Assembly: GCA_028690485.1 (NCBI GenBank)
Contig: JAQVBD010000006.1
Coordinates: forward strand, 1 to 64,000
Source of the DNA: Endomicrobiaceae bacterium
Lineage (GTDB): Bacteria > Elusimicrobiota > Endomicrobiia > Endomicrobiales > Endomicrobiaceae
Direction of reading: 5' to 3'
DNA length: 64,000 nucleotides
Every line of letters starts with the position of its first letter. Position 1 is the stretch's first letter. The position numbers and the translations under genes are program-made. The notes beneath the pieces were generated by a model. The model was not told the DNA's origin and ran no database searches. It saw only the letters and a list, made by a program, of their open reading frames with translations. Positions 3,001 through 27,365 of this stretch are shown one piece after another.

Positions 3001-6000
3001 ATGGTAGCGATACAGCTGTTTTTATAGCTGATCCTAAACTTAATGCTGATGGTACATATTCTTTAAGTATTGTAACAGAGGAAGGGAAAGTAATAGCAAA
3101 AGTAGATTCATTGAAAATAATGAATAGCTATGGGAATATAACGACAGATGATATTGAATATATGCTTTCTAATGCTACTAAAATTAATAATGAAGAATAT
3201 TATTCATTTGTTGTAAGAAATTATGATGAAAATTTAGAAAACAATTCAAAATACGAGATACATATTGATACAGATGGTAATATTTATTATACATATGACG
3301 GACGAAAAGTAAATATTAATTATGGTGAATTTTATGCTATAAAAAATGCAGAAGCAAAAGCATTTAATGTCACAGCAAGTGGACAAATTTCTCCGGTAAG
3401 AATTTTTGTTGGTGAAAATGTTGTTCTTCATATATCTGATAATGAAACGATAACAGTCAATACTTCGTTATTGGAAAAATATATCCAAGGTAGTACAACA
3501 AAAATAACTGGTAAAAACCAAAATGGACAAACAGTTACATTAACAACAGCTAACTTAAACAAAATGGTTTCTAGCTTTAAAGAAATGGGTTTAAGTAAAG
3601 AAGGTGATATTTGGGTTTCTTCAAGTAATGTTAAATTTAGTTTTACAGATGAGAGTAAAACAAATGGAATATTAAGTGTCCAATCATCAGAAAATGAATA
3701 TTCAAATACTAAGAATTATGTAGCAACTATTGTTGGCTATAAAGATGGTTTGCCAATATACCAAACAGAAAAAACACCTGTTAGCCAAACTTTTGGTATG
3801 GGGTATAAAGATATGTTGGCTGATTCGGGCTTTAGTTATAAAGTAGCCAATATTGAAGGATTATTCGGCGAAATTAAAGATTATTGCGGTTATAATTTAT
3901 CAGAACTTACATGGTCTAAGACAGAAGTCCTTTCAGAAACCGGCGAAGTAATCCAGACAAGTTGGGCTGCTTATTCTGATAGTTCAACACCTGTTATAAA
4001 AATTACTCCTGATGGATATATAGATTTTTCAATTAACTATGAATATGCAGGTACTGTGTCTAGTTATAAGGGACAAAAATTAGATTGTGGTATAAGATAT
4101 AATTTGTTAAATGATGATGTTAATCAAGATCCAATGAACCTTGTTTCTATAACAGGAGTTGGAACAGTTGTTTTGGATTTATATAAAGGTTATGCATTTA
4201 TAGAAGATAGAACAGCTGATGGGTATTTGACAAGTAAATATTATATTACAATGGAAGATTCATCAAAATTATTTTCATATGAAGATGATAGTATAACTTG
4301 GCAAATGACATTAGATACGTATTTTGCTGATTGGATGAAAATTTCTAATAGTAGTGATATGGAAAATTTAATTACATCAGTTAATTCTTTAGGCGAAGGA
4401 AATATTTGGAGTGTTACAAGAGTAGAAAAATTTGCATATTATCTTGAAGATTGTAACTTAGAAAATTTAACAGATGAAGAAAAATCAAAATTAAAAACAG
4501 TATCAGATGAATACAGCGGAGCTTTGCTATCATTTTTGGGTATACCATTACAAACTCAAACATATTTAGTAGATGCAGATGGCAAAATAACAGAAAGTCT
4601 AATAAGTGAAAGCTTTTTTAACGGTATAGATTGGGAAAAACAAAGAATACATAGCTATGAAATCATTGATACACAAATTGAAAATGAAACTGTCCAATTT
4701 AGAAAGTATGAGAGAGAAACAGATTTTAGAGGGAACGTATTACAACAATATGAAATAGAAAATGGACAATATGTTTCCGGTGTTATAGTTCCGGAATATG
4801 ATCAATATGGAATCGGTTTAAAATCATATGCTGTTGTTTTTGAAGATGGAAAGGCTTATGTTACAAGCTCTACTAACTTTAATGGAAGAATAAGTGCTAA
4901 TACAATAGTTTATGAAAATAATGTAAATACTGTATTATTTGCACATGAAAGAACTCAAATTGAAGATCTTAATCCGTTGGGAATTTCTGATGATATGTTG
5001 GATGTTACAACTGGGAATATGTTCTCATTGGAAGAGTTATTGTTGACAGAAGATGGTGATTTAAAAGATACAGATAAAATTCAATCTGAAAAGTCTTATA
5101 TTTTAAATAATGCTGAAGGTAGAAATGTTATAACATTATCAAACTTGATGGTAGATGAGAATGGAAGTATTATAAAAGCAGAATCTGAGTCAGATGCAAC
5201 CGATTTTGAAAAACAATTTGGTTATCCATCAATTATTTCATACAGTAAATATTCACAAGAAGAAGTAACAATAGATAATGAACGCAGACAATTGAATATT
5301 GGTCATCCAACAGTTGTAGTTTCTTATGCATATAATGATTCTTTAAATTTTGATCAATATGGTGCAAAAGATAAGAATGGCAATTTAGTAACAGATGTAA
5401 CAGATGTTATTAATAACAGTAATTATATATCCAAAATGAACAATTTACAGATAGTTAATACAGGTACTGAAGCTAATAAGGTTATATCATTAGTTTATAC
5501 TGTTTATACTAACCCAAATTTTAATATGGATAATGCTTTTGATGGTTTAGTAAGAAGATTTCAAATAAATAATGATTCTGTTTTTAATGAACAGAAAGCA
5601 ACAGTTGCAAAATATATATCACAGATGTCTGGTTTGAAGGCTGTTTCTTTTAAAAGCGACGGATTAAAGTATTTTGAAATCTATGATTATATGGCATCAC
5701 AAACTGTTTTTGGCAGCATAAATATGAATACTTATGAGGTTAATGTTCTTAACAGAATGGGAAGAGCGCAGTATGGTTACCTTATAAATAACGATAATAC
5801 TAATTTTGTTAAAGATAGTGAAAGAAAAGATTGGGCAGAATTTATTGACGATTTGTCAGTTGTTGATAATACTGTAACATCAATAGAAAATGAAAACAAT
5901 AGTTCTTTAGCAGAACTAGTTTCTGATGTAAAAACAAGAAATTTAGTTCCTTTTGATAAAAATGGAATTCGTATAAGTAGAGTTTGGTCAGATATGTATA

Positions 6001-9000
6001 TATCTTATGAAAATGGAACAAGATATGTAAATCATAATTATTATGAAGTTAACCATTTAAATACTGGTGACAACCCAGCGATGACAAGATTTAGATATAT
6101 ATATGATGACAATGGTGTTCTTGTAAGAAAAGAGCAGAGCGAAATTTTTTCAGATTGGTTTGGTGAATTTAATAAATTTTGGGTTGGTTTACAAAGCTTT
6201 TATGCTCAAAATAAAGTTTTAGCTACAATCATTTTTACTATTATTCCTGTTTTGGGTATTGCATTTACATTTAAACTTGCAAGTGCAAAAAGAGAATATA
6301 AGAAAAAGAAAAAAATGATAATGGATTCATTGAATGCACCAAGAATATCAGGACCAGAAGCATCATCAACATTGGCGCAACCAAAGATAATTAGTCCTGA
6401 ATTAAAACAATCAGCATCTGATCTAATATTGGATAAATATGAAAAATTGTGGGGAGTCAGAAATGATTATTTAAAACGTGCAATTAATTCAACATTTATA
6501 TCAAGATTTATCAAAAATGATAGCGGTATTACTAATACTACAGACAACTTAACAGATGCAATTAGCAAATCTTTATTAAGTACTGGGAATGTTGATCAAG
6601 TAATGTTTGATGATTATCGTTGGTGGATAAGAAATGTTATGTCTCAAACAATACAAGTAGGTAATAGAGATAATTTCATAAAAGAAAATACCGGGTCATT
6701 TACACAAGAAGATTTAGTACTGTTTTATTATATATACATTGCAACTATGAACATGAGACAAGATGATATGGCATTTAGAAATATGTTGTTTTTCAATGCG
6801 AAAAAAATGATTCAAGAAGGAAAAACAAATCAAATTGGTCTTATGATAGATACGGAATCAGCAAGATTTTTGAATATTGTTGAAAACGGTCTCAGCATTC
6901 AACAACAAGTTGGACAAATGGAAGCGATGAATGCCGTTAAATCTAATAAAAAACTTCAAAAAGCAATAGCTTTCTACAAAAAAAATAAAGCAGAAATTGA
7001 TGAGCTGGAATCAAAATATAAAAAAGCTGGTGCAGATGATGCAAATTTTGAAAAGCTTACAGATGTAATGGATGGCTATTTTAAAAAGTATGGTTTTAGA
7101 ACATTGTTTGGTGTTAAGGGTGCAGGTGGCAGAGGTAAAATGAAACCTGATGAAACTTTAACATATTATGATATAGATGCAATATTTAGAAAGCCGGCTT
7201 ATGTAAATGCTTACAATAATATGATTTCGAATTATGTTGAAAGTGGAGAATATCAGAGAGTTAATTCTAATAATACAGATGCAAGAAAATTATCATTTGA
7301 ACCAAAAATGTTACCTTTTAGAGCATATATACCTCATTCTGGTAATCTGTTTGGTATTACAAATTTATTGGGACTTTCTCAAGCATTAACTAATCTTAAG
7401 GGCGTTGTTGTTATGTGGCTTACCAATTTATCTCTTGTTGGTGGAATTATTACATTTATGCAAGTACTCGGTTCAGTTGGAGTATTGAGCGCAATTGGCT
7501 TTGGAGGACTTTTTATAGTTGCAGGTTTAGCGCTTACAGGGTTGGTTTATGGCGGACTTGTAATAATTGGAAAAGCACTTCAAAAGAATACAGTAAATGA
7601 ATTCTATGGAAAAACAGTTGATAATTCACAAGATAGAGGATTAGAAAGTAAAGATAGAGATGATATAAAAACAGCTAAAAAAGCTATGGTTAAACGTTGG
7701 GCTGGAGTTCTTTCTGTTAAAACTATCTGGGAAGTATTTTTATTAAATACAGTAGTATCATCTATAATAACAACATTAGGTGGTTTTTCATCAATAACCG
7801 CAATGTCGTTAACTGGTATAGGCTTGATGTCTTTGGTAAATCCAGTCCTATTGTTTGCTGTTATTTCTTTGTTAGGAATATCAACATATATAGGTTTAAT
7901 ACGTCCAATGACTAAACGTGTGAATAAATGGTTTACAGATATAAAGACTGGGAAAATCAAAGAAACATCGTTCACTAAAAAATATCCTAAATTAGCAGAT
8001 ATTACAATGAAAGCATTACCACATGTTTTAGCAATAGGAACTACAGTCGCTATGATATCAGGATTTTATGGACTTTTCTCTATTGCAACAGGATTTGTAT
8101 TTATTGGTTTGTTAATTTTGCCATTTGTTTTATTTACATTTTTGGATTTCTTTGGGTTCTGGGATGTATTTAAAGCTATTAGTATTTTGATTACAAGACA
8201 AAAAGCTGGATATTTTGTTGGAAAACAATGGCAATCATTTCAGAAGTTTTTAGGTGCAGTTGGAACAGCAGATATTAATACAAATATTGAAAAAATACAA
8301 AATAGTGAGTTCTTTAAAGAATGGGAAAGTACTTTCTTACCTGAAAATGTTGCAGTTAAATTATCAGAAAACCAAAAGATGGTTATTTTTGCAAAATATT
8401 TCAATCAGATTATCATGTCATATTACAGAACCGGCAAGATATCTGCTGATGAATATGCAAAATATGTATTTGATTTTTCTGAATATAATGGTGGGAATAG
8501 TTTTGACAGAGAAATTACAAAAGTTCCGGATTTAAGTACAGCACCAAAAGCATTTGGCGCAAGAGAACTTTTCTATAGATTACACCAAGAAACAAGTGCA
8601 AGAGCAATACAAGGATTTAGAAATCCAAATTTAAAAGATATAAGTATATCAGCATTAATTCCTACTTTTGATGAAGGTGTTACATATTTACTTGATGTTA
8701 AAGAAGGAAAAACTGGTGAAAAATTAAATAGTGATACTCTGAATCCTGATGGTAATACTTTGCTTACACACTTAATGAATGTTTATGAAGGTGAATTTGC
8801 AAATATGATAACCAGAGTAGAAAATGGAATTGATTTCAGAGGACGTGCAAAAACTTTAACTGAAGATGATAAAGAAGTTATTGAACAAATGAAAGGTATG
8901 TTTGATTCAACTGGTAATGTTATAAAAGGGAAAAAACTTAGAAGAGCAGATGGTACAGAATTACCTGATTGTTGGGTAAAACAAGAAATCAGCAGATGGG

Positions 9001-12000
9001 CTGATGAAAAATTACAACCTTTAAGTCCAACTCAATTAGGAATTCTTAATCTTAGAGAGGCATTGGATTTCTTGGCTGAAGTAGAATTTAGTTCTGAAAG
9101 AAACGGGATGAATGATCAAGACTGGAACAAATATATTCATGGATTGGCTAATAATTCATTTGAGTTTATTTCCGGTTATCAAAATTTCGGAGCTGTTTAT
9201 AAAGATGGAGATAGTTCTAAAGCAGGAGAAGGTATTAATGATAGCAGAATTATAGGTTTGTTTGAAAATATTAAGGAAAACAGAGATATAATCGTTCCTG
9301 TAATGCATCAGCAAGAGTATGATTTCAAAAAATATAAAGCTCTTAAAGATATACAAAAAAGAAATCTTGCTTCGTCTTATGATTTAACATTGATTTCAGA
9401 AATAGAGAAAACAGATATTGGTAAAGACTGGTTAGCAACAGATACAGATAATGGCAAAAAATTCAAATTAACGTCGTTTAGACATTTAAAAGCTGAAGAT
9501 GTTTCTTATGCTAAATATGTTGAATTAAAAAATAAAATTGAAAAAAACAATGCAACAATAGCTGAAAAAGCTTTATTTGACGCTATTAATGCAGAAATTG
9601 CAAAAGAAAAAGTAAAATATGAAAAATGGGAAAAAACAGGACGAGAAAAATCAATAGTTGAAGGGTTTAAGAACAATGGTATAAAAGCCATTTTTGATAA
9701 TAATAATGGTATATTAACAACAGTTGTATTTGATGACAGCGGAACTACAATTTCTCCTTTCCATGGAGTAATGGGCATGGGAAAAGTTGACCATCATACA
9801 CATCTAGAAGGAGATGTTTCAAAAGATTTCCTATTGCAAATGGATATGAATCAAAATTTATTTGTTCAAAGTGCTTTGACATTTTTTGGAGCATTGCAGC
9901 CATTATTGCAAGATGAAGAAGTTTATAATGTTAGCTTGTTAGAGCAAATACCAACAAAGAGATTAACATCTGTTGGTGCTAAAGGTGCAAGTGCAGAAGA
10001 AGGGTTTAATGCTTCTCATAAAGATATGAATGAATTGTGGCAGTTACATATGTATGGACATCCAAATTTATTGAGAACTCGCTTTATACAGTCATTTTCA
10101 GGACAAAGTAAAGGTCTTGTCAGTGAAGATGCTACTGCTGGAAAATCTGCAAAAGTAAAAGGTGGCAAAACAGTTGCTTTAGATGGTTATGTTGTTGAAA
10201 AAACCAGAGAAGCCGAAGTTCCATCATTTACTGGAATGTTTACAAAGTTTTCAAGTGGTTCAGCAGAAATGAATCAGTCATCATATATATATGAATATAA
10301 TAAAGCTTTGAGAAAAGGTTTTGGCTTTATTGGCGGACTTACAGCTGAAGCAACAGATTTTATTGCCGGTCCGGGATTCTATGCTAAAGAAAGATTAGTA
10401 ACAATTACGGTAAAAGTATTCCTTAGTGCAATATTATTACTTGGTATAAGCGGTTTTTCTGGCTTTAATTTCGCATTTTTACTTGCTTTAATTGGTATTA
10501 CATTATCCCAAACAAGTGCTTTAACCGGTATGGTTAAAGATTTATATACTTTCGGCGAAAGTTTTAAAAAGTGGGCAGGTAAACTTATTACAAACTTTAG
10601 TTATTTCGTTACACAAATACAAACTCACAGCTATGGTTATGATGCTGGTTTAGCTGGAAGATCTGCTCATGTTAACACAGGAAGAGGCAGTGGAACGATG
10701 TTCTCCCAAATATTGCCAAGTATGATAACTGAAAAAGTTGGTGTAGCAGCTAGTGATGAAGTTAAGTCAAAAGCAAAGGAAAAAGCATTGGCTTCTGCAA
10801 AAAAAGAAGGTAAAAATGGAATAGCAATGTTTGATTCTCATCTTACAACATCTGTTTCAAATATATTAATAATAGCTTCAGCAATTTTACTTTCAGCAAG
10901 TTCTAGTTTTGCTCTTTCTATATTATATATTTTAATACCTTTTGGAGTTATATTAGGGCAAACACAACTTAAACAAGGTTTTAATATTTTCCAATATGAT
11001 TCTAAAGTAGTTTTTAGTAATATGGTAAAAGAATTTAAGAGATGGCTTGATATTAGTTTTTCTCCAAATATTAAAGAAGTAACAAATGATGAAGGCGAAA
11101 CATCATTTGTAGTAAGGCCAGAAATGTCAAGAGTATTAGCATTTATCGTAGGTGGTATTACTTTATCAGTACTTTTTGCAGCTAATACATTAGGATTTTT
11201 AATTAAGTCAGTTAATAAGATCGGTTATAAAATAGGGCAATATTTTGCTAAAACAAAAAATGGTTACAAAAATACACTTTATGGTTTTAGTCCTTTTGTT
11301 ATTATTTTAGTTATTTTAGCATTACCATTGATTCCTAGTATTATATCTGGATATAAAGAGCAAAAGAAAATTATTAATGATAATAAAGAAAAAATTAAAA
11401 CATTAAAAGCAGAAGTAGAATCATTAATAGCAGGTTCAGAAGAAACAAATGAAGAATTGACAATCAAGAAACAAGAATTAGAAAGTGTAATGCTTACATC
11501 ATATACTAGGTCAAAAATAGAAGAACTATTGAAAAAATATGATGTAAAAGCAAAAACCGAAGAGATATCAAAGACAGAAGAAGGGACAGTACAAACAACA
11601 GATATCAAAATAAATATAAATGATGAAGCAGCAGTAAATGCATTGATAGAGAAAGTAATATCAGAGCAAGGTTCAAAATGGGATGATGCAAGTAAATCAA
11701 TTTTCAGATCTACAAGAAAAGAATATATTAAACAATTGAGAGAAAAGGCAAGAGGAGCAAAAACACAACAATTGGTTATAGGAGAAAATTTTGAGGCATT
11801 GAGCAGATTGGCATCAAAAGATTTCAGTGAAGTCAATTTCGAACAGTTGGAAAATATATTAAATAATAAAGAATATACAGAAGAGGCAAGACAAACATTA
11901 GTAGATGTATGTCTGATGAATGGTGGATTAGGCTCTTCAATAGCTAGAAATGATTTAATAGCAGCAGTAAAAGTATATGAATCTGCATATAAAGAAGCAA

Positions 12001-15000
12001 TGAAAATCGAGGATAAAACAAGAAGAGAAAAAGCAATACAAGAATTAAGAAATAGTTTAATGGATGGAACATTCTTAGATAAAGATTTCAGCGGGATAAA
12101 AGTTCAATATGGTGCAAAAGCTGATGATTTATTCTTTGTAGTAAAAGATAAAGATGGTAAAGCAGAATTAAAGAGTATAATGCAAATTAAGTTAGAAAAG
12201 CTATTGGCAGAGAAGAACAGTGGAATATATAAAGGCATCCAAATAGCTATGTTAGTCAGTCCGGAGTCAGAAGAATTAGTAACTGCATTATATGATAACA
12301 ATGAAGGTAAGATAAACGGAGTAAAAGAAGGGAAAACATTAAAAGATGTGATCAGTACAGGTATGGAAAGACAGGATATGTATCCTGTTCTTCAATATAA
12401 TGAAGAAACAAATGAAATCAATTTTGTAACAACAGCAGAAGGACAGGCTGTTGATGGCGCAAAACCGGCACCTGGAGGACATGGAGTTTGGTTAGCGACT
12501 GTAGTTAAGAGAATATTAAATAGAACAACGAATGCAGTAGAAAAAGCAGTAACAATAATAGGTAATTCGGACGCTTTGGCAAGTGGACCAATAGCACAGT
12601 TGATAGGTTACATGACAAAGAATAAAGTAGGAATAGTAATAGTATCAGTAGACAGAGAATCAATAGATAGAAAGGGTGGAGTATTCGGCTTAATGACTAA
12701 AGAAGTATTGAATGAAAAGGGTGAAGTAATAAAAGTTATAAAAGTTCCAACGATATTAGAATTAGCTCAAGCAAAAGCAGCAAATCAAGCAGCATTATTT
12801 GAAGAATTAGGCTTATTACCAGAGAAAGAAGGTGAAGAAGTATTGCCTCAGCCATTTAATTCAAATACAGTATTTGTTAATGATGTAATTATGAAAAAAT
12901 TACATGATGGATTATTAAAATTAGGTATGACTGAAGAAGAGTTTGATAAATTAATGTTGCCTGATTTAATGGGTAATACAAAGAAAGGATATACGAAGAT
13001 AGAAGGAGCATTAGGTTCATCAACATTGAACATGAATGCAAACTTAGAAGTATTAAGAATACAAAATCCAAAAGTAAATGCATTAATGAATTCTATATTA
13101 GGTAAAGATCAACAGTTAGTGAAGATAGTAAATGCAAAAAAAGAACTTAGAGATATAGTATTTACTCCGGTAAAATTTGCAACAGATTTCTGGATACAAT
13201 TTACAAACGGAGAAATCAAAAATGGAGTGTGGAGAAGTAAATCACCGGAAGGTCACGGAGCAGTTAATGTAGAAGCGATAAATAATGTAAAAGAAAAACA
13301 ATATACTGATGTGTCATACTTCTTAAAGAATTGGAGAGGAGTAGATATTACAAGATTGTCAAATTTACATGTAAACGGTGATGATATAAAATTCAATGAT
13401 GTTACAATGCAAGGAGATGTAACTGTAACAAATAAGACAAAGAATAATTTGATTGTAAGAAATGCAGCTTTAAATAATTTATCAATAATTGTAAATGATG
13501 ATGGTTTTACAATTTCTGATAAAGATGGCAAATCAGTAGCTAATAATTTTATTCAAGTAATTGATGGTAATAATATTATAATTGAGCAAGTAAAATCTGA
13601 TGAAGGTGTAGTTGAATCAGAAGCTAAAGCAGAACAAGAATCTGAAGAATTATTAGCTGTAGCAGGTGATTCAGTAGTAAAAGCTGTAAATCCAATAAAA
13701 TCAATACAAGAAATAGCAGTAAAAGTTGTTGAACAAACAGATAGTAAAGTAAGTATTTCTGATGAAGCAGCAGTAAATGCATTAGTTGAAAAAATTGTAA
13801 CTGAAAAAGGTAAAGATTGGTCAGAAGCAGGCAAAGCTATATTTAGAAGAACTATATCTAAATATGTAGAACAATTAAATAATGAAGCAAAGGGTTTAAA
13901 ATCAAGTAAATTAGTTATAGGTGAAAATTTCCGTCCGTTTGCTATTGTTAAAGGTAAAATAGCAAGTTTAGTTCAATTAGCTAACATATTAAAAAATGAT
14001 GCTTATGAAAAAGAAGCTCAAAAAGTTAATGTAGATGTTGACTTAATGAATGGAGGAATTGGTTCATCGATAGTTAGAGATGGTTTAATTGTAGCAGTTC
14101 GTTTGTTTAATGAAGAATTAGCAAAAGCAGGACAAATTAAAAACGAAAAAGAAAAACAAGCAAAAATTGCTGAATTACAAGAACAGTTAAAAACTTTAAC
14201 TTTCATGGATAAAGTTAATTCTGATGCTAAAGCAAAATACGGAGCAAAAGCAGACGACTTGTATTTTGTTACAGTTGATGATGATGGCAAATATGAATTA
14301 AAGAGCATAATGGAAGCAAAATTAGAACATATATTATCTGCTAAAAATAGTGGTACCTATGCTAATGTTAGAATGGTTATGTTAGTTAGTCCTGAATCAA
14401 AACCTTTAGTAGAGGACTTATACAAGAAAAATGCCCCTGGTTCTGACAAGAGTATTAAGACAGCATTAGAAGCAGATATGGAACAACAAGATATGTATCC
14501 TGTTGTGCAATATGATAAAGATGCTCAGAAAATTAATTTCTTGGTAAATGATACAGATCCAAAAGCACCAGGCGGACATGGAGTATGGTTAGCAACATTA
14601 ATGAAGAGAATTTTGAATAAAAAATTAAATGGTGCAAAATCTGTATCAATTATAGGTAACTCGGATGCAATGGCAAGTGGACCTATATCAAGGCTTATAG
14701 GTTATATGTCAAAAGAAAAAGTTGGTATGGTAATAATATCAGTTGACAGAGAGTCAATAGATAGAAAGGGTGGAGTATTTGGATTATTGGAAAAAGAAGT
14801 TAGAGATACAAATGGTAAAGTTATTGATACTGTTCAAGTCCCAACAATATTAGAACTTGCTCAGGCAAAAGCAGCAGAGCAAGCCGGATTATTTGAACAG
14901 TTAGGCTTTAGAGCAACAGATAATGCACAACCATTTAATTCAAATACTGTTTTTATTAATGATGCTATAATGCAGCAGTTACATGAAGGTTTAATATCAA

Positions 15001-18000
15001 TTTTTATGCAACAAAATATGACACAGGAACAGGCTGAAATTACGTTCGAGAACTTGATGTTGCCTGATTTAATAACAAACCAGAAAGAAAAAGATGGTGT
15101 AAAATATACACAATTAGAAGGAGCATTGGGTTCATCAACATTGAACATGAATGCAGGTTTAGAAGTTTTGAGAAGACAAAATCCGGCAGTTAATAATTTA
15201 ATGAATAGTATCCTAGGACAGAATAAACCGCTAGTACAAATAGTAAATGCAAATACAGGTCTTAGAGATATGGTATTTACACCGGTCAAATTTGCAACAG
15301 ATTTCTGGATACAATTTACAAATGGTCAAGTTAAAAATGGTGTATGGACAAGTAAATCATCAAAAGGTCACGGTGCAGTTAATGTTGCAGCTGAAGGGAA
15401 ATCATATAAAGATGTATCTTATATGTTAAAGTACTGGAGAGATTGTTTAATTACAGGACTTTCTAACCTTTATGTAAATTCTCAATTATCAAAAGATAAA
15501 GATGGAAAAGTATCAGGATTAGAAAATGATGAAAAGATTGATAATGCAGATAAACAGGGTATTGTTAAGATGAAAAACGTTGTATTGAAATCTGATGTAA
15601 CAATTAACAATAGAACTGATAAAGAATTACTATTAAGACCTGACTTAATGTCATTATGCGGATTCCCTGTCGAAAACGGGAAAACAGTGTTAGAAAATGT
15701 TAAAGTAGTTGCATTCGAAAAGACAGACGGAAGCATATCTTTATCCGTTGTTAAGTATAAAAAATCAGAAGATGGAAGTTTAAGAGAAGATACAGTTAAG
15801 TCTTATTCAACAGGATTAGTAAGTGCTGATGAATTCGGAGAAAATAATATGTATATTGTTCCATTTGAAGTTTCTTCTTCTGAAGCAACTCCAAATGTTG
15901 ATGATACAAGAAAAAATTCATCATCAAAATCAGCACAAGATTATAATAAAGCATTAAATGAGATAGCATCTCTTACAAATGCAAAATATCATCTTGATAT
16001 AACAATTTCAGGTGAAGAATATGAAAAGAGATTAATGCAGGATATAGAAAGAATAAAAGAAGAAACTAAAAAAATAGTTGAATCACCGGTTAGAGCAGAT
16101 ACCGAGAGATTAATAAATGAGTTAAGACAGGCAAAAATATTAGCAGAAAAAGCTCAAGAAAAAGCTTGGAGAGAACAAGTTATTTTTAAATCAACTAATA
16201 ATAAAAAAGGTGAAGATTTAATTAACAGAGCTAATTATGTATTTGGTTTAGCGGAAAAAGAAATGGGTAATTATCCTTCTGCAATAGCTCTTTATAGAAT
16301 ATCACAAAAACAATATGAAGAAGCTGTATCTGCATATAATATTTTATTGTTGCCTGAAGCAGATAAATCATCAATAGTAACAACAGCTAAAACATCTACA
16401 AAAGAAACAGCAAAAGTAACAGTAAAACCATATGCATTGGCAACAGGAATATCACAAGAAATAGCAAATGTTTCTTTTGGTACAAGAACTTTGCCGGATA
16501 CATTAAAAATTACTCCTCAACTTGTTGTAGATGCTGATATGAATGGCTATAAGAAATTGTTTGCTATACCAATTAGAATCTCTGGTAAGATACTTAAAGT
16601 TGATGCAAATATGTCAGTATCTGATGATGGTGAAATATCAGTTCTATTTAGTCTTAATGCAAAATCAAAAGATATGTTTGAAGCTATGTTAAAAGGTAAA
16701 TCATCAGAAGAAATTCAAAAGATCACACAAGAAATTACAGATATGTATACCGTAGCTTATTATGGAAGACTTAATTCTGATGGCTTTGCAAGACAGAAAT
16801 TTTTGAAGTATGTATTAGGTGGAAAATTTACATTCAGTTTCTTCAATAATACTGATATTGCAAAGTTTAAAGCTGATATAGAAAAAGCATATAGAGAATC
16901 AATAGAGAATATCGGTAAATACAGCGATGATGCTTTATTTAAAGAGTTTATAGAAACTGAAATTAATCAGTCAGTAATACCTGCAGGAAGAAAAGAAGTG
17001 GATGTTAAAATGACAAAATTATCAAATTTAATTAAAACATTGGAACATTCAAGAAATTCAGGTGTAACAGCAATAAATCTTGATGCTGAAGGTTTATCAC
17101 AAGCAGATACTATAACAGCAATTAGAATAATAAGAGATTATGGTCTTGATGTTAACATTATAATCAATATTCAAAATGTTACTGATATAAATACTGAAAT
17201 AGAAAAAATTAATGCTATGAAGGGTTTAACAGGTGTAAGATTTATTTCGGACGGTTCTATCTCTCAAATAGAACAAATGGTACCGGAATTTAATTTTGCA
17301 TTAGTTCCAAATATTTCAGTAGATTTCGGGGAAAATATTAATTCAAAAGAAGTAGAAAAAGCAAAAGGCTATGTAGAGTTCATAAAAGCAAAAGGTTATG
17401 AACTAGTACTTAATTTGGATACATTATCTCCTGAAATCACAAAAACTGTTAAAGATATTGAAATGTTCATGACTTCATTAGGAATCACAGAACTTATAGA
17501 GAATGGGAAATTTATTCCTAAATTTAATTCTGATAAAACAATTAAGAGTAATGCTATTGCTCAAAGATTCCTACAAGGCAGAAATATAATTGCTGTTGCT
17601 GTTGAAACTTCAATGGCTAAGTATTCTGATATAACAAAACAAATAATTTTTGGTGATAAAATAAAACAAAGTTATAACAGAGGAATGTCAGTTGAATTAT
17701 ATGATGCATTTAATGCAAATACTGATTTTACATCATATGCAAAAATATTAGGAGATAAGACATTATCTTTTGGAAAATTAAAAGAAATGTATAAGAATGA
17801 TGTTCGTCAACAACTTACAGAAATTGCAAAAAATGCTGTTGAATCAATACTTTATACAGAAGCTGAAGAAAATTTGACAGATGCTCAAAAAACTGAAAAA
17901 GTATCAATGGTAAGACAATTATTAAGTGGTATGATTAGCTCATATGTAGAAAGAGAAGTATTTTCAAAATTGTTAAGTGAAAGAGAAATTAATATCAGCG

Positions 18001-18350
18001 AAATGAATACATCTGATAGAAAGTATATCAGATATTTAACAACACAACTTTTAATTTCCGGTATATCAGTAGAAGATATAATAAACAGATTGGAAAATAT
18101 TCAACATAGTAAAACATTATCTTTGACTGAGATAAAACAAGCATTAAAATTTGACATAACAAGAGTATTAAAAGATCTTAATGTATCAGACATAATAATT
18201 GAGCCTGTTGCTAAAGCACAAGTAGCAAAGACATTGGAAAATATAGATACGATTCTTGCATCAACAGATAGGTTGTTAGATGTAAATGCTTTAAATAAGA
18301 GCTTGTCAGTATCTGTAGATGGAGTAAAAGGTATATTAAGTGCAGCATAG
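1..18350 (+). CDS. Giant membrane polysaccharide synthase: repeats + GT48-like glucan synthase + two UDP-glucose pyrophosphorylase domains (5' partial)
   Basis: The frame is already open at base 3, so the start lies upstream; at least 6115 residues are visible. Order: tandem repeats (3-1715), three YFEV-type repeats (about 1740-2240), Ser/Thr-rich linkers around an amphipathic Trp-rich helix (2360-2600), a long beta-rich probably extracytoplasmic part (2600-6180), a first membrane helix (about 6210-6275), a GT48-like core with two membrane clusters (6300-11350), two UDPGP domains (11610-15900), a TPR-like helical part (15930-16350) and a C-terminal region ending ILSAA. GT48 enzymes polymerise UDP-glucose into beta-1,3-glucan, and UDPGP enzymes make UDP-glucose from UTP and glucose-1-phosphate. 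I infer a self-supplying glucan synthase in the inner membrane. Domain calls rest on remembered family motifs; the linkage made and the activity of either UDPGP copy are unproven. Confidence 0.85.
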   Translation, partial: DAYPSTEVNYAEVKTNIAADAKASALFLSRYGYSINDATEAQLKAIFPDGASIDQFFMDAYPSTNETVNALVDGLMSYFGISKATAMGIIFPEWKDADGNTQSEDRSGWTLAQLKAAYQSYLDQQAKDAKVNALVDGLMSYFGISKATAMGIIFPEWKDADGNTQSEDRSGWTLAQLKAAYQSYLDQQAKDAKVNALVDGLMSYFGISKATAMGIIFPEWKDADGNTQSEDRSGWTLSQLKAAYQSYLDQQAKDAKVNALVSGLMSYFGISKATAMGIIFPEWKDADGKTQSEDRSGWTLSQLKAAYQSYLDQQAKDAKVNALVSGLMSYFGISKATAMGIIFPEWKDDDGKTQSEDRSGWTLSQLKAAYQSYLDQQAKDAKVNALVSGLMSYFGISKATAMGIIFPEWKDADGKTQSEDRSGWTLSQLKAAYQSYLDQQAKDAKVNALVDGLMSYFGISKEIAMGIIFPEWKDADGKTQSEDRSGWTLAQLKAAYQSYLDQQAKDAKVNALVDGLMSYFGISKETAMGIIFPEWKDADGKTQSEDRSGWTFAQLKAAYQSYLDQQAKDKAYNQRLNELEQKLKEAGYTVSRRGTENIYFEVSNNSGLVLKVYLEDFKDIESINKIFDTYAQLKAITGATVTYKADSNGNWYFEVKTSDCTLSVYPFDKSGNYTFDVNKTKQIIELYSKFKELDSKIYNVTIKTDENGYMYFEVTKNNVTVKIYPFDEAGNVVSIFNAYSIQQIVDVYMYNKLGEDNFGTDGTGFMQKRLDVRLDEAKAYFDQLNKNKETSQSSTVTSEEGTTTTTTTKLTFWDKISNFFVSIWNWVRSLFGLDPLALKEETTTTSSSPTESTEVSENTATESNVYSYEENGIKVEIKQTDTYDINGQKATVYVKVFYDAEGNYLGVEEFLNYNNEFYNRYISNEDGKVFSIESSIVDEQEDISFVYSENNIKTLSGALVSSLVESKLKENNYEVIGNIVYAVSNNKSLTQIGIGTVRINGSDTAVFIADPKLNADGTYSLSIVTEEGKVIAKVDSLKIMNSYGNITTDDIEYMLSNATKINNEEYYSFVVRNYDENLENNSKYEIHIDTDGNIYYTYDGRKVNINYGEFYAIKNAEAKAFNVTASGQISPVRIFVGENVVLHISDNETITVNTSLLEKYIQGSTTKITGKNQNGQTVTLTTANLNKMVSSFKEMGLSKEGDIWVSSSNVKFSFTDESKTNGILSVQSSENEYSNTKNYVATIVGYKDGLPIYQTEKTPVSQTFGMGYKDMLADSGFSYKVANIEGLFGEIKDYCGYNLSELTWSKTEVLSETGEVIQTSWAAYSDSSTPVIKITPDGYIDFSINYEYAGTVSSYKGQKLDCGIRYNLLNDDVNQDPMNLVSITGVGTVVLDLYKGYAFIEDRTADGYLTSKYYITMEDSSKLFSYEDDSITWQMTLDTYFADWMKISNSSDMENLITSVNSLGEGNIWSVTRVEKFAYYLEDCNLENLTDEEKSKLKTVSDEYSGALLSFLGIPLQTQTYLVDADGKITESLISESFFNGIDWEKQRIHSYEIIDTQIENETVQFRKYERETDFRGNVLQQYEIENGQYVSGVIVPEYDQYGIGLKSYAVVFEDGKAYVTSSTNFNGRISANTIVYENNVNTVLFAHERTQIEDLNPLGISDDMLDVTTGNMFSLEELLLTEDGDLKDTDKIQSEKSYILNNAEGRNVITLSNLMVDENGSIIKAESESDATDFEKQFGYPSIISYSKYSQEEVTIDNERRQLNIGHPTVVVSYAYNDSLNFDQYGAKDKNGNLVTDVTDVINNSNYISKMNNLQIVNTGTEANKVISLVYTVYTNPNFNMDNAFDGLVRRFQINNDSVFNEQKATVAKYISQMSGLKAVSFKSDGLKYFEIYDYMASQTVFGSINMNTYEVNVLNRMGRAQYGYLINNDNTNFVKDSERKDWAEFIDDLSVVDNTVTSIENENNSSLAELVSDVKTRNLVPFDKNGIRISRVWSDMYISYENGTRYVNHNYYEVNHLNTGDNPAMTRFRYIYDDNGVLVRKEQSEIFSDWFGEFNKFWVGLQSFYAQNKVLATIIFTIIPVLGIAFTFKLASAKREYKKKKKMIMDSLNAPRISGPEASSTLAQPKIISPELKQSASDLILDKYEKLWGVRNDYLKRAINSTFISRFIKNDSGITNTTDNLTDAISKSLLSTGNVDQVMFDDYRWWIRNVMSQTIQVGNRDNFIKENTGSFTQEDLVLFYYIYIATMNMRQDDMAFRNMLFFNAKKMIQEGKTNQIGLMIDTESARFLNIVENGLSIQQQVGQMEAMNAVKSNKKLQKAIAFYKKNKAEIDELESKYKKAGADDANFEKLTDVMDGYFKKYGFRTLFGVKGAGGRGKMKPDETLTYYDIDAIFRKPAYVNAYNNMISNYVESGEYQRVNSNNTDARKLSFEPKMLPFRAYIPHSGNLFGITNLLGLSQALTNLKGVVVMWLTNLSLVGGIITFMQVLGSVGVLSAIGFGGLFIVAGLALTGLVYGGLVIIGKALQKNTVNEFYGKTVDNSQDRGLESKDRDDIKTAKKAMVKRWAGVLSVKTIWEVFLLNTVVSSIITTLGGFSSITAMSLTGIGLMSLVNPVLLFAVISLLGISTYIGLIRPMTKRVNKWFTDIKTGKIKETSFTKKYPKLADITMKALPHVLAIGTTVAMISGFYGLFSIATGFVFIGLLILPFVLFTFLDFFGFWDVFKAISILITRQKAGYFVGKQWQSFQKFLGAVGTADINTNIEKIQNSEFFKEWESTFLPENVAVKLSENQKMVIFAKYFNQIIMSYYRTGKISADEYAKYVFDFSEYNGGNSFDREITKVPDLSTAPKAFGARELFYRLHQETSARAIQGFRNPNLKDISISALIPTFDEGVTYLLDVKEGKTGEKLNSDTLNPDGNTLLTHLMNVYEGEFANMITRVENGIDFRGRAKTLTEDDKEVIEQMKGMFDSTGNVIKGKKLRRADGTELPDCWVKQEISRWADEKLQPLSPTQLGILNLREALDFLAEVEFSSERNGMNDQDWNKYIHGLANNSFEFISGYQNFGAVYKDGDSSKAGEGINDSRIIGLFENIKENRDIIVPVMHQQEYDFKKYKALKDIQKRNLASSYDLTLISEIEKTDIGKDWLATDTDNGKKFKLTSFRHLKAEDVSYAKYVELKNKIEKNNATIAEKALFDAINAEIAKEKVKYEKWEKTGREKSIVEGFKNNGIKAIFDNNNGILTTVVFDDSGTTISPFHGVMGMGKVDHHTHLEGDVSKDFLLQMDMNQNLFVQSALTFFGALQPLLQDEEVYNVSLLEQIPTKRLTSVGAKGASAEEGFNASHKDMNELWQLHMYGHPNLLRTRFIQSFSGQSKGLVSEDATAGKSAKVKGGKTVALDGYVVEKTREAEVPSFTGMFTKFSSGSAEMNQSSYIYEYNKALRKGFGFIGGLTAEATDFIAGPGFYAKERLVTITVKVFLSAILLLGISGFSGFNFAFLLALIGITLSQTSALTGMVKDLYTFGESFKKWAGKLITNFSYFVTQIQTHSYGYDAGLAGRSAHVNTGRGSGTMFSQILPSMITEKVGVAASDEVKSKAKEKALASAKKEGKNGIAMFDSHLTTSVSNILIIASAILLSASSSFALSILYILIPFGVILGQTQLKQGFNIFQYDSKVVFSNMVKEFKRWLDISFSPNIKEVTNDEGETSFVVRPEMSRVLAFIVGGITLSVLFAANTLGFLIKSVNKIGYKIGQYFAKTKNGYKNTLYGFSPFVIILVILALPLIPSIISGYKEQKKIINDNKEKIKTLKAEVESLIAGSEETNEELTIKKQELESVMLTSYTRSKIEELLKKYDVKAKTEEISKTEEGTVQTTDIKININDEAAVNALIEKVISEQGSKWDDASKSIFRSTRKEYIKQLREKARGAKTQQLVIGENFEALSRLASKDFSEVNFEQLENILNNKEYTEEARQTLVDVCLMNGGLGSSIARNDLIAAVKVYESAYKEAMKIEDKTRREKAIQELRNSLMDGTFLDKDFSGIKVQYGAKADDLFFVVKDKDGKAELKSIMQIKLEKLLAEKNSGIYKGIQIAMLVSPESEELVTALYDNNEGKINGVKEGKTLKDVISTGMERQDMYPVLQYNEETNEINFVTTAEGQAVDGAKPAPGGHGVWLATVVKRILNRTTNAVEKAVTIIGNSDALASGPIAQLIGYMTKNKVGIVIVSVDRESIDRKGGVFGLMTKEVLNEKGEVIKVIKVPTILELAQAKAANQAALFEELGLLPEKEGEEVLPQPFNSNTVFVNDVIMKKLHDGLLKLGMTEEEFDKLMLPDLMGNTKKGYTKIEGALGSSTLNMNANLEVLRIQNPKVNALMNSILGKDQQLVKIVNAKKELRDIVFTPVKFATDFWIQFTNGEIKNGVWRSKSPEGHGAVNVEAINNVKEKQYTDVSYFLKNWRGVDITRLSNLHVNGDDIKFNDVTMQGDVTVTNKTKNNLIVRNAALNNLSIIVNDDGFTISDKDGKSVANNFIQVIDGNNIIIEQVKSDEGVVESEAKAEQESEELLAVAGDSVVKAVNPIKSIQEIAVKVVEQTDSKVSISDEAAVNALVEKIVTEKGKDWSEAGKAIFRRTISKYVEQLNNEAKGLKSSKLVIGENFRPFAIVKGKIASLVQLANILKNDAYEKEAQKVNVDVDLMNGGIGSSIVRDGLIVAVRLFNEELAKAGQIKNEKEKQAKIAELQEQLKTLTFMDKVNSDAKAKYGAKADDLYFVTVDDDGKYELKSIMEAKLEHILSAKNSGTYANVRMVMLVSPESKPLVEDLYKKNAPGSDKSIKTALEADMEQQDMYPVVQYDKDAQKINFLVNDTDPKAPGGHGVWLATLMKRILNKKLNGAKSVSIIGNSDAMASGPISRLIGYMSKEKVGMVIISVDRESIDRKGGVFGLLEKEVRDTNGKVIDTVQVPTILELAQAKAAEQAGLFEQLGFRATDNAQPFNSNTVFINDAIMQQLHEGLISIFMQQNMTQEQAEITFENLMLPDLITNQKEKDGVKYTQLEGALGSSTLNMNAGLEVLRRQNPAVNNLMNSILGQNKPLVQIVNANTGLRDMVFTPVKFATDFWIQFTNGQVKNGVWTSKSSKGHGAVNVAAEGKSYKDVSYMLKYWRDCLITGLSNLYVNSQLSKDKDGKVSGLENDEKIDNADKQGIVKMKNVVLKSDVTINNRTDKELLLRPDLMSLCGFPVENGKTVLENVKVVAFEKTDGSISLSVVKYKKSEDGSLREDTVKSYSTGLVSADEFGENNMYIVPFEVSSSEATPNVDDTRKNSSSKSAQDYNKALNEIASLTNAKYHLDITISGEEYEKRLMQDIERIKEETKKIVESPVRADTERLINELRQAKILAEKAQEKAWREQVIFKSTNNKKGEDLINRANYVFGLAEKEMGNYPSAIALYRISQKQYEEAVSAYNILLLPEADKSSIVTTAKTSTKETAKVTVKPYALATGISQEIANVSFGTRTLPDTLKITPQLVVDADMNGYKKLFAIPIRISGKILKVDANMSVSDDGEISVLFSLNAKSKDMFEAMLKGKSSEEIQKITQEITDMYTVAYYGRLNSDGFARQKFLKYVLGGKFTFSFFNNTDIAKFKADIEKAYRESIENIGKYSDDALFKEFIETEINQSVIPAGRKEVDVKMTKLSNLIKTLEHSRNSGVTAINLDAEGLSQADTITAIRIIRDYGLDVNIIINIQNVTDINTEIEKINAMKGLTGVRFISDGSISQIEQMVPEFNFALVPNISVDFGENINSKEVEKAKGYVEFIKAKGYELVLNLDTLSPEITKTVKDIEMFMTSLGITELIENGKFIPKFNSDKTIKSNAIAQRFLQGRNIIAVAVETSMAKYSDITKQIIFGDKIKQSYNRGMSVELYDAFNANTDFTSYAKILGDKTLSFGKLKEMYKNDVRQQLTEIAKNAVESILYTEAEENLTDAQKTEKVSMVRQLLSGMISSYVEREVFSKLLSEREINISEMNTSDRKYIRYLTTQLLISGISVEDIINRLENIQHSKTLSLTEIKQALKFDITRVLKDLNVSDIIIEPVAKAQVAKTLENIDTILASTDRLLDVNALNKSLSVSVDGVKGILSAA
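3..203 (+). repeat. 58-residue (174 bp) repeat unit preceding the main repeat array
   Basis: DAYPST is encoded at base 3 and again at base 177, a period of 174 bp or 58 residues. The window therefore opens inside a second, older repeat type. The unit shares a skeleton with the 63-residue repeats that follow (a hydrophobic helix, an S-x-x-x-AT motif, IFP, then a Leu/Phe-rich helix), so the two repeat types probably share an ancestor. The number of copies upstream cannot be seen. Confidence 0.7.
204..1715 (+). repeat. Eight tandem 189-bp (63-aa) repeats
   Basis: Units start at 204, 393, 582, 771, 960, 1149, 1338 and 1527, in frame with the giant gene. Each encodes VNALVDGLMSYFGISKATAM, then an IIFPEW motif, an acidic loop with SEDRSGWT and a helix ending in LDQQAKDAK. 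Copies 1 and 2 look identical at DNA level, as do copies 4 and 6, while copy 5 between them differs (for example a DD pair in the acidic loop). Copies 7 and 8 are the most diverged, and copy 8 ends in KDKAYNQ. This points to recent unequal recombination and probably variable copy number. The role is unknown; a stalk or binding array outside the cell is plausible. Confidence 0.95.
1740..2240 (+). repeat. Three degenerate YFEV-type protein repeats
   Basis: The codons for YFEV recur at 1797, 1956 and 2133 (spacings of 53 and 59 residues). Each is followed by a strand with a VY or IYPFD-like motif and then by a helix (IFDTYAQLKAI, IIELYSKFKEL, IVDVYMYNKL). The units are too diverged to align at DNA level, unlike the neighbouring 189-bp repeats. 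They probably form small alpha/beta modules between the repeat stalk and the Ser/Thr-rich linker. Confidence 0.65.
6300..11350 (+). other. GT48-like (FKS1/callose synthase) glucan synthase core within the giant protein
   Basis: Two membrane clusters (about 7340-8200 and 10395-11345) flank a soluble block (8200-10390), the FKS/callose synthase plan. Motifs in GT48 order are: TYYDIDAIFRKP (about 7165-7200; FKS1 has YDDVNQLFWYP); SALIPTFDEG (about 8650; SVLTPHY); a DMNQN motif after KVDHHTHLEG (9785-9860; KSDNQNH then DANQDNY); HMYGHPNLLRTRF followed by SEDATAG (10045-10140; HYGHPDF then NEDIYAG); YNKALRKGFGF (about 10300; KGRDLGF); AGPGFYAKERL (about 10365-10400; GMGEQMLSRE); a loop with NTGRGSGT (about 10675; IGTGRGF). 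A cytoplasmic active site using UDP-glucose is expected from the family. I compared against remembered fungal and plant sequences, so the linkage made remains uncertain. Confidence 0.8.
11610..13540 (+). other. First UDP-glucose pyrophosphorylase (UDPGP) domain in the giant protein
   Basis: It follows the last membrane helix and so probably lies in the cytoplasm. Motifs match eukaryotic-type UGPase (UGP2) in order: MNGGLGSS (about 11920; UGP2 has LNGGLGTS), PGGHGVWLA (about 12470; PPGHGD), IGNSDALASG (about 12560; SNIDNLGAT), RKGGVFG (about 12670; KGG), FNSNTVFVN (about 12855; FNTNNLW), KIEGALGSS (about 13000; LETAVGAA) and FTPVKFATDFW (about 13160; LPVKTTSDL, whose Lys is conserved). A beta-strand-rich tail follows (SNLHVNG..MQGDVTV), like the UGP2 C-terminal beta-helix. 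The usual CKGPKS stretch after the glycine loop is not seen here, so activity needs proof. Confidence 0.8.
13750..15900 (+). other. Second UDP-glucose pyrophosphorylase (UDPGP) domain in the giant protein
   Basis: This is a diverged tandem copy of the preceding domain: both open with ISDEAAVNAL or INDEAAVNAL and share MNGG(L/I)GSS (about 14045), APGGHGVWLAT (about 14570), IGNSDA(L/M)ASG (about 14658), SVDRESIDRKGGVFG (about 14740), FNSNTVF, GALGSSTLNMNA (about 15118) and FTPVKFATDFWIQF (about 15280). All the main motifs survive in both copies, so neither looks like a dead remnant. DNA-level divergence is large, so the duplication is old. It carries an insertion around LISIFMQQNMTQEQAE and a longer linker after the beta-helix. 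Either copy could prefer another UDP-sugar, or the pair could act as an internal dimer. Confidence 0.8.
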
Positions 18351-24431: not shown

Positions 24432-26096
24432 ATGAGGAAACTTAGAATATTTTTTATGGATAATTGGGGAAAGATATTAGTAACAGTATCAATACTTCTT
24501 TTGATATTGCTTACTTTATGGGGACTTAGCAAACTTGAGTCATTTTATAGAAATATGACCGTTGCAACATTACCAATGCAGATACTTATTGGTGGTATGC
24601 ATGCAATGGTTTTTGTTGGAGCATATTTGTTTTTTATGAAAGGTGGTTTCGGTAAGATAACAAAGAAAAGTATTAAAGCTTCTGATATTAATGTTAAATT
24701 TAGTGATGTTATAGGTCTTGATGGTGCGAAAAGAGAGGCTATGGAAGTTGTTCAACTTATAAAAGATGGTGCAAGAGTTAAAAAAATTGGTGGTAAAATA
24801 GTTAAAGGTATTATTCTTATGGGCCCTCCTGGATGTGGGAAAACATTGCTTGCCAAAGCAATTGCAACAGAATCAAAGATGCCTTTTTTATCAATATCCG
24901 GAAGTGAATTTGTAGAAGTTTTTGTCGGAGTCGGAGCTTCAAGAGTCAGACAATTGTTTCAAAAAGCAAGGAAACTGGCTTATGCAGAGGGAGCTTGTAT
25001 TGTTTTTATAGATGAAATTGAGGTTATAGGTAGAGGTAGAACTTTTTCATATATGGGTGGAGGGGAAGAAACAAATAGCACTCAAAATCAATTGCTTGTT
25101 GAACTTGATGGTCTTGATAGTAAAAGACATAATATAGTTGTTATTGGTGCTACTAATGCCAATGAAAGTGTTATGGATAAAGCTCTCTTAAGACCGGGAC
25201 GATTTGACAGAAAAATATATATCAATTTGCCTAATCTTAAAGAAAGAGAAGAATTATTTAAATTTTATCTTAAAAAAGTTAAAGCTGATCCAAATATAGA
25301 TGTTGTAAAGTTAGCTAAAAAAGCTGTTTATAAATCACCGGCTGAAATTGAAAATATAATAAAAGAATCTGCACTTATAGCTACAAGAAATAATAAAGAT
25401 ATTATTGATATAGATGATATATCAGATGCAATTGATAGAATAGATTTAGGTTTGGAAAGTCATATTTGTATGACTGACAAAGAAAAAGAAATGACAGCAT
25501 ATCATGAAGCAGGTCATGCAACAACATTATATTTTTTACATCCGACAGATGATGTTTTTAAAGCTACAATAAAATCCAGAGGAGATGCTTTAGGCTTAGT
25601 TTCTCACAATCCTAAAGAAGAATTGCATACACAAAATAAAGAAAAATTAATAGCAGATATTATTGTTAGTTTAGCAGGATATAGTTCTGAAAAAATAAAA
25701 TATGGTACAACTTCAACAGGTGTATCCTCTGATTTTAAGAAGGCAATGGCAATAGCTAATGCAATGGTATGGCAATTTGGAATGGGAGAAGAAGGCTTTA
25801 TAGGTGATTTTACAGTTATTCCAAAAGAAAATATGTCTTCCAGTTTAAAAGAAAAATTAAATCAGCAAACAATGAAAATTTTAGATTCTTGTTTAAAAGC
25901 TGTAAATGATTGTTTAACTGACCAATGGGTTATCGTTGATGAAATGGCAAAAGCATTGGTTGAAAGAGAAGAACTTGATTATGATGATATAGATGAAATT
26001 TTTGCAAAATATGGTAAAAACAAAGATAAGTCTTATATTAATACTAACATTTCTCAAAAGGATGCTGCCAAACAGTTGGAAACACCAAATGCTTAA
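24432..26096 (+). CDS. ftsH: FtsH-family membrane AAA+ zinc protease, short periplasmic loop
   Basis: This ATP-dependent protease extracts and degrades membrane and cytosolic substrates. It has two N-terminal membrane helices (residues about 17-34 and 51-67), Walker A GPPGCGKT (131-138), Walker B FIDEIE, an arginine-finger region with LLRPGRFDR, and the peptidase motif HEAGH (358-362). An Asp (SSDFKKA) stands where the third zinc ligand is expected. At 554 aa it is shorter than typical FtsH (about 600-650), mainly because the loop between the membrane helices is only about 17 residues instead of 70 or more, and because the C-terminus is short. It may therefore be a specialised paralogue rather than the housekeeping copy. 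The ATG follows AGGGGCG. The lipoprotein gene downstream overlaps its end by 8 bases, so the two are co-translated. Confidence 0.9.
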
Positions 26097-27352: not shown

Positions 27353-27365
27353 TTTGGAGGATAGC

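Follow-up and report, generated by a model that had tools for sequence, protein, structure and literature searches.

Analysis of the window (the whole 64,000-nucleotide stretch of DNA, contig 29 in the genome of a member of the Endomicrobiaceae, phylum Elusimicrobiota) revealed a giant open reading frame in which six transmembrane helices were followed by a GT48 catalytic domain, further helices and two UDP-glucose pyrophosphorylase (UGP) domains. This protein is probably a bacterial polysaccharide synthase of the GT48 family with a built-in supply of its donor. The papers available treat GT48 in eukaryotes (PMC12715860, PMC3797821, PMC7965971), and no description of GT48 with two UGPs in one bacterial protein was found there. 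The frame and its main features were as follows.

3..18350, + strand: giant ORF (6115 codons), truncated at its 5′ end where the contig begins, N-terminus absent; C-terminus ...GVKGILSAA
203..1709, + strand: tandem array of a 189-bp (63-aa) unit × 8, 97% matches
6216..6272, + strand: single transmembrane helix (aa 2072-2090), then a Lys/Arg-rich stretch, predicted from hydropathy and the positive-inside rule
7404..8156, + strand: six predicted transmembrane helices paired as three tight hairpins (aa 2468-2718), corresponding to FKS1 TM1-6 (AF2 model)
8373..10382, + strand: GT48 catalytic domain (aa 2791-3460)
10395..11351, + strand: second cluster of membrane helices (aa 3465-3783), about six in number
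11733..13472, + strand: UGP domain A (aa 3911-4490), with NGG, GAK, GHG, NSD, DRKGG, FNSN and FTPVK motifs
13872..15650, + strand: UGP domain B (aa 4624-5216), with motifs as in domain A
15651..18320, + strand: C-terminal region without known domain
18321..18347, + strand: C-terminal tail GVKGILSAA, of the ILxAA type common to most giants of the group

No internal stop was present between the contig start and 18350. Because this is one uninterrupted 6115-codon frame, the GT48, membrane and UGP features lie on a single predicted polypeptide, in agreement with the claim of one giant protein made in an earlier sequence-only reading, whose end coordinate of 15900 was also about right (UGP B ends at 15650). 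The contig begins within the 189 bp × 8 tandem repeat, and this array is the probable cause of the contig break. C82, a 7.2-kb contig of the same genome, terminates in the tandem repeats of the window and overlaps a further contig, C77, by exactly 127 bp; C77 encodes an N-terminal head domain. It is likely that C82 joins the window across the repeats, and C77, C82 and the window would together give a full protein of about 9000 aa. In the N-terminal part, Pfam matches to HTH_60, GP3_package, YqeY and others lay within or adjoined the 63-aa repeats. At the other end, the last ~600 aa of the C-terminal region were common to giants of the genomes G004, G031, G019 and G281. The chain may be cleaved.

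The GT48 domain of the window protein scored 47.9-49.3 bits against PF02364 (gathering cut-off 37.2). The matches formed two collinear stretches, 8649-9212 and 9942-10445, each of which on its own scored below the cut-off in a six-frame search; relatives of the domain matched PF02364 down to 5e-66. No GT2 family match was obtained for the domain. A single-sequence search of PDB recovered FKS1 weakly (E 0.0036), and a profile of 13 relatives matched FKS1/FKS2 only, collinearly and at E 1e-39; for GT48 and UGP alike, clear PDB matches came only with profiles of relatives. The AF2 model of the GT48 region had a pLDDT of 73.8 and a pTM of 0.73. When it was searched with Foldseek, the 13 best PDB matches were all Fks1/Fks2 (E 2e-17 to 3e-9) and the GT2 synthases trailed them at about 1e-5. 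The whole-query TM-scores against Fks1/Fks2 were 0.34-0.48, and the structural alignment gave about 13% identity to FKS1. The PF14288 (FKS1_dom1) match which the earlier reading had also proposed to look for was absent from the window protein at E<=1; an N-terminal region of ~375 aa is present. PF14288 lies outside the catalytic definition of GT48.

The FKS1 residues E851, K1082, D1102, N1104, E1221 and D1222 have been found to be of importance (PMC12715860). Their equivalents were kept in 13/13 homologs, and the following motifs were located in the window protein.

8673..8675, + strand: Glu (aa 2891), corresponding to E851 of FKS1; invariant in 13/13
9780..9785, + strand: GK motif (aa 3260-3261), K3261 equivalent to FKS1 K1082, Lys invariant
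9843..9851, + strand: D-M-N (aa 3281-3283), equivalent of FKS1 DAN 1102-1104, D3281 and N3283 invariant
10053-10064, + strand: YGHP, preceding the ED motif
10125..10130, + strand: ED (aa 3375-3376), corresponding to E1221-D1222 of FKS1; invariant
10677..10685, + strand: T-G-R (aa 3559-3561), like FKS1 STGRG

Two FKS1 positions were substituted, Y849 by F and N1085 by H. The sequence-only reading had described a GT48-like synthase with FKS/callose-synthase motifs in order between two membrane clusters. Each part of this description held: the motifs are present and the profile alignment is collinear, the PF02364 score, the FKS1/FKS2 matches and the Fks1/Fks2-like predicted fold agree with the invariant catalytic residues, and the domain is flanked by clusters at about 7404-8156 and 10395-11351. 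Hydropathy and the positive-inside rule placed the part upstream of the helix at aa 2072-2090 outside and the part downstream of it inside. From the charges of the loops, GT48 and the last C-flank are predicted to lie on the inner side. The UGPs would be inside only if the number of helices after GT48 is even; a loop between two of these helices is also Lys-rich, which counts against such a placement.

The two UGP domains shared about 58% identity. UGP B passed PF01704 alone (24.9 bits, cut-off 22) and UGP A gave no match, being recognised only via the profile of its relatives, so that the proposed PF01704 check came out positive for one copy and negative for the other. Of 11 UGP relatives, 7 matched PF01704 (best 2.7e-15). 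A single-sequence PDB search with a UGP domain gave an E of 1.1. The 11-relative profile found UTP-glucose-1-phosphate uridylyltransferases at best 8.9e-23, followed by 15 more UGP chains; the next PDB matches were all >0.1, with UAP at 0.16. In the 11 relatives K, H-G, N-x-D and D-x-KGG were invariant and FN-N and FTPxK nearly so, and both A and B contained the catalytic and binding motifs of UGP, not of UAP. As this profile found UGP enzymes alone with significance and both copies retain the catalytic motifs, the earlier claim of two UGP2-like domains stands. Alignment of the giant UGPs with Elusimicrobiota UDPGP sequences by hhalign was collinear over 224 columns and scored 42.5 (13-21 for shuffles; probability 57%). 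An AF2 model of the UGP domain built from five sequences reached a pLDDT of 41. Both GT48 and UDPGP profiles were matched, and the fold compared with FKS1, that of GT48, resembled it.

GT48 was found in 16/285 Elusimicrobiota genomes. In five of these, GT48 and UGP were on one reading frame; the five were scattered on the GT48 tree and carried several UGP subtypes. A UDPGP-type sequence was present in 12/16 genomes with GT48 and in 22/269 others, in a test that ignores phylogeny. The fusion and its gene order were repeated in independent assemblies from the rumen and other guts. UGP domains also occurred in giants without GT48 (for example G038:C11 and G025:C33), and GT48 giants with complete 3′ ends but without a detectable in-frame UGP were encoded by G013:C43, G031:C5 and G004:C67. 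The pairing of GT48 and UGP is therefore recurrent, not obligatory. A single-protein search of the genome contigs revealed no relative and a search with a closer alignment revealed six named relatives; there were none among phages, plasmids and viral contigs.

The giant is followed by two more, and these neighbours were as follows.

18443..24295, + strand: giant 2 (1950 aa), with the common head domain, ending NIRGILSAA; syntenic in relatives
24432..26096, + strand: FtsH-like AAA + M41 peptidase of 554 aa, conserved downstream of giant 2
27354..36551, + strand: giant 3 (3065 aa), with the head domain, ending RTRNILSAA

The giants share an N-terminal head domain, have signal-like N-termini and mostly end in an ILxAA tail.

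No GalU (TIGR01099) over the cut-off was found in 49 Endomicrobiaceae genomes, and the weaker GalU matches in the genome of the window did not include its UGP domains. All PF01704 matches in Endomicrobiaceae were within large frames. Given these two observations, a private source of UDP-glucose makes sense. In the favoured reading, the N-terminal part would be exported and anchored by the single helix, and the six helices, the cytosolic GT48 domain and the second helix bundle would form an FKS1-like synthase and channel. Two UGP domains on the cytosolic side would convert UTP and glucose-1-phosphate to UDP-glucose beside the active site, and the synthase would polymerise this and extrude the product, a glucan whose linkage is most likely beta-1,3. 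Such self-feeding, from UGP through UDP-glucose to GT48, is what we infer.

Modular shuffling without channelling would also bring the two together; the UGPs would then supply the whole cell and their proximity to GT48 would be incidental, in giants that carry many biosynthetic modules. Giants that have UGP modules but no GT48, or GT48 but no detectable UGP, suggest that the link may be of this kind, and in a family without GalU over the cut-off UGP may serve all UDP-glucose needs. Against this, UGP lies behind GT48 in the same frame in five genomes with different UGP subtypes, and the co-occurrence (phylogeny ignored) points the same way, leaving shuffling rather unlikely. That the protein is a GT48-related processive synthase of another beta-glycan, of other or mixed linkage, is likewise unlikely: linkage is not readable from sequence, the identity to FKS1 is low and Y849 and N1085 are substituted, but the DxN and ED motifs are retained and searches by sequence and by fold ranked FKS1/FKS2 above every GT2 synthase.

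It is improbable that the giant is an exported polyprotein in which signal peptide, head and tail mark export or assembly and cutting, and the domains are separate surface or effector proteins. The signal-like N-termini, common head domain, ILxAA tail and downstream FtsH-like M41 gene would fit this, as would the giant ORFs of Omnitrophota, which PMC10066038 discusses as surface or predation proteins. However, GT48 and UGP depend on UDP-glucose, UTP and glucose-1-phosphate from the cytosol, the charge pattern places both inside, and the catalytic residues are kept. The MAG-like draft assembly, with contigs broken at repeats, could suggest a chimera or eukaryotic contamination, but this is effectively refuted and very improbable, as the same fusion and gene order recur in independent rumen and other-gut assemblies and the contig also encodes LptF/LptG, SecA, Lnt and RF.

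A synthase with its own donor supply thus remains the preferred reading. More tentatively, it may belong to a bacterial GT48 branch found in 6000-12000-aa proteins with built-in UDP-glucose synthesis, within a wider Elusimicrobiota giant-protein system whose members share the exported head domain and mostly carry an ILxAA tail read by dedicated machinery. Echinocandin antifungals act on GT48, which also makes callose, and a divergent branch in bacteria would shed light on how the family arose. The fungal enzyme needs Rho1; a bacterial GT48 might serve as a simpler model of the enzyme. A polysaccharide synthase supplied with sugar nucleotide from within the same protein would be a natural example of substrate channelling. 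The reading also makes a definite biochemical prediction for two types of domain found in giant proteins of bacteria, in a lineage whose members live as gut symbionts of termites and ruminants.

The giant ORFs of Omnitrophota and Elusimicrobiota (PMC10066038, PMC11573180) are similarly very long, with membrane helices, poor annotation and small PVC-related genomes; the parts of these papers available report no GT48 or UGP content and do not mention the head domain or ILxAA tail. Eukaryotic-type UGP2 (PF01704) shares the UGP motif set and C-terminal region with the window domains, and PDB significance was limited to UGP enzymes; the window UGPs differ in a long insertion that separates NGGxG from the putative catalytic Lys, in being weak in single-sequence searches and in being two tandem copies that are not free-standing. 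GT2 curdlan synthase and BcsA are, as the giant would be, processive UDP-glucose GT-A synthases with a membrane channel; their fold match was far weaker than that of FKS1, and the window protein has DxN for DxD and no GT2 family match. FKS1, the best match in sequence and fold, has helices on either side of a cytosolic GT-A domain and shares the E851, K1082, DxN, ED, YGHP and TGR motifs. The window protein differs from it in its identity (about 13%), in lacking a detectable PF14288, in its smaller number of helices behind the GT domain, in the F and H at Y849 and N1085, and in that its GT48 is contained in a >6115-aa bacterial protein and fused to UGP.

Giant 1 was found to be one frame that is already open at the contig edge (base 3) and reaches its stop at position 18350 of the window, which is contig C29 of a 1.63 Mb genome (G000, 96.5% complete). 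The features considered here are as follows.

3-18350 (+): giant 1, 6115 codons, N-terminus cut
8373-10382: GT48 catalytic domain
11733-13472: UDP-glucose pyrophosphorylase (UGP) domain, copy A
13872-15650: UGP domain, copy B

The TTG at 129 was rejected as the true start, being merely the first start codon listed. The window contig begins inside a tandem array of 189 bp repeats (x 8). A second contig of G000, C82, is one open frame of 2406 codons whose terminal repeats are 98% identical to this array, and C82 overlaps contig C77, which codes for the head domain described below, by exactly 127 bp. Therefore, giant 1 is likely to be a protein of ~9000 aa spread over C77, C82 and the window, with C82 joined to the window via the repeats. 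The complete frames in relatives encode 10563, 10988 and 11689 aa.

The sequence-only reading placed a GT48-like glucan synthase and two UGPs on this polypeptide. PF02364 matched the window GT domain with 47.9 bits (cut-off 37.2) and matched 11 of 13 family members, the window included among the 13 (best 5e-66). A profile of the 13 members, searched against all PDB sequences, retrieved FKS1 and FKS2 at 1e-39 to 5e-38, with all others at 0.4 or above. In yeast Fks1, E851, K1082, D1102-x-N1104 and E1221-D1222 are catalytic or bind UDP-glucose (PMC12715860); the profile alignment showed these to correspond to E2891, K3261, D3281-x-N3283 and E3375-D3376 of the window protein, which were invariant in all 13 members. 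For an AlphaFold model of aa 2455-3654 (pLDDT 73.8, pTM 0.73; GT core mostly 85-95), the 13 top-ranked PDB matches were all Fks1/Fks2 (2e-17 to 3e-9), and synthases of hyaluronan, cellulose and chitin came next, at 1e-5 or weaker; TM-scores over the whole query were modest (0.34-0.48). In sequence, motifs and fold alike, the catalytic features that define GT48 are present in the synthase part, as had been claimed. PF14288, also proposed as a check, was not detected in the window protein by Pfam search.

The claim of two UGPs also held: the NGGxG, GAK, GHG, NSD, DRKGG, FNSN and FTPVK motifs were present in both copies, and copy B exceeded the PF01704 cut-off. A profile of 11 such domains reached 16 distinct UGP sequences at 8.9e-23 to 4e-12, with the rest at 0.1 or above and UDP-GlcNAc pyrophosphorylase first encountered at 0.16. 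Profiles and motifs thus predict both domains to be UGPs.

GT48 was patchily distributed: of the 285 Elusimicrobiota genomes with a completeness of 80% or more, 16 encode it, and it was not found in the sole other genome of the window's genus. Named relatives recovered with the GT domain were Endomicrobium sp., Ca. Endomicrobium neocapritermitis and Ca. Ruminimicrobiellum ovillum, together with Endomicrobia or Elusimicrobia MAGs from sheep rumen and red deer; kinship with such genomes points to an Endomicrobiaceae host (phylum Elusimicrobiota) for giant 1. UGP-type domains like those of the window were present in 17 genomes, and additional PF01704 matches exist. Loci L082-L090, in other Elusimicrobiota families, are genuine free-standing UDPGP-family enzymes (PF01704, ~360 aa).

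Genomes encoding GT48 and UGP in the same frame
G000 (the window's own): two UGP
G019: two UGP, nearly identical
G281: UGP
G029: UGP
G282: UGP, a clearly different UDPGP sequence

On the GT48 tree these five genomes require five state changes, so the association has been gained or lost repeatedly, although several rows lacking UGP are truncated contigs, which weakens the count. A UDPGP-type sequence occurred in 12/16 GT48 genomes versus 22/269 others (Fisher p 1.5e-9, kinship ignored). GalU did not exceed its equivalog cut-off in any of 49 Endomicrobiaceae genomes; because weaker nucleotidyltransferase matches do occur in these genomes, the absence of UDP-glucose synthesis elsewhere in them is no more than likely. 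Other domain combinations were observed: in a giant of G281 (L111, contig C83), a calcineurin-like phosphoesterase lies between GT48 and UGP along with a RamC_N match, and in a giant of genome G038 (L048:3-5552, contig C7), GT48 is followed by a match to the TIM barrel of glycosyl hydrolase family 2.

Giant 1 is the first gene of a cluster kept in G019, G281 and G282, and partly in G030 and G031; after it come, in order, giant 2 (about 2000 aa), an FtsH-like M41 peptidase, a protein of 290 aa and giant 3.

18443-24295: giant 2, 1950 aa
24432-26096: FtsH-like AAA/M41 peptidase, between giants 2 and 3, 64-68% identical in relatives
27354-36551: giant 3, 3065 aa
18500-20098 and 27363-28910: head domain
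C7, C11, C66, C67, C69, C72, C77, C81 and C97 (contigs of G000): head domain
18321-18347, 24266-24292 and 36522-36548: ILxAA-like tail, also in relatives

The head domain, common to the giants and found at 11 places in G000, spans about 520 aa and has conserved IQDLH and GGxHT motifs and a signal-like N-terminus; it had no Pfam match over cut-off and no PDB match. An [ILVM]LxAA C-terminal end was found in 23 of 30 stop-terminated ORFs of at least 1000 aa versus 0 of 298 frames of 150-999 aa, and this tail recalls a putative C-terminal recognition tag. The giant-protein system marked by head domain and tail may be the broader discovery. Other giants (L047 on G038:C7; L041-L043 on contig C13 of genome G013) contained a SecA-like P-loop segment, with PF21090 at E 8e-5, under cut-off, and a blastp match to the window SecA at 1e-8.

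In the likely scheme, the tethered UGP domains would convert UTP and glucose-1-phosphate to UDP-glucose, which the GT48 site would polymerise, the chain being extruded through the helix bundle; two UGPs per synthase would suit a fast polymerase. From charged loops, the GT48 domain and the region past the last helix are predicted to be cytosolic, and the part preceding the helix at 6216-6272 to lie outside.

Elusimicrobiota and Omnitrophota are already known to encode giant proteins (PMC10066038, PMC11573180); in the passages of this literature covered here no mention of GT48 or UGP within them was found, and a prior mention may exist. An Endomicrobia genome paper mentions neither glucan nor giant proteins. 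In the literature found, GT48 is reported from fungi, plants, green algae and stramenopiles. Compared with Fks1, the window GT48 has F at the Y849 position and H at the N1085 position; the YGHP and TGR motifs are retained. About six helices follow the GT48 domain in the window protein (about 10-12 in some distant members) and, as in FKS1, six helices lie N-terminal of it.
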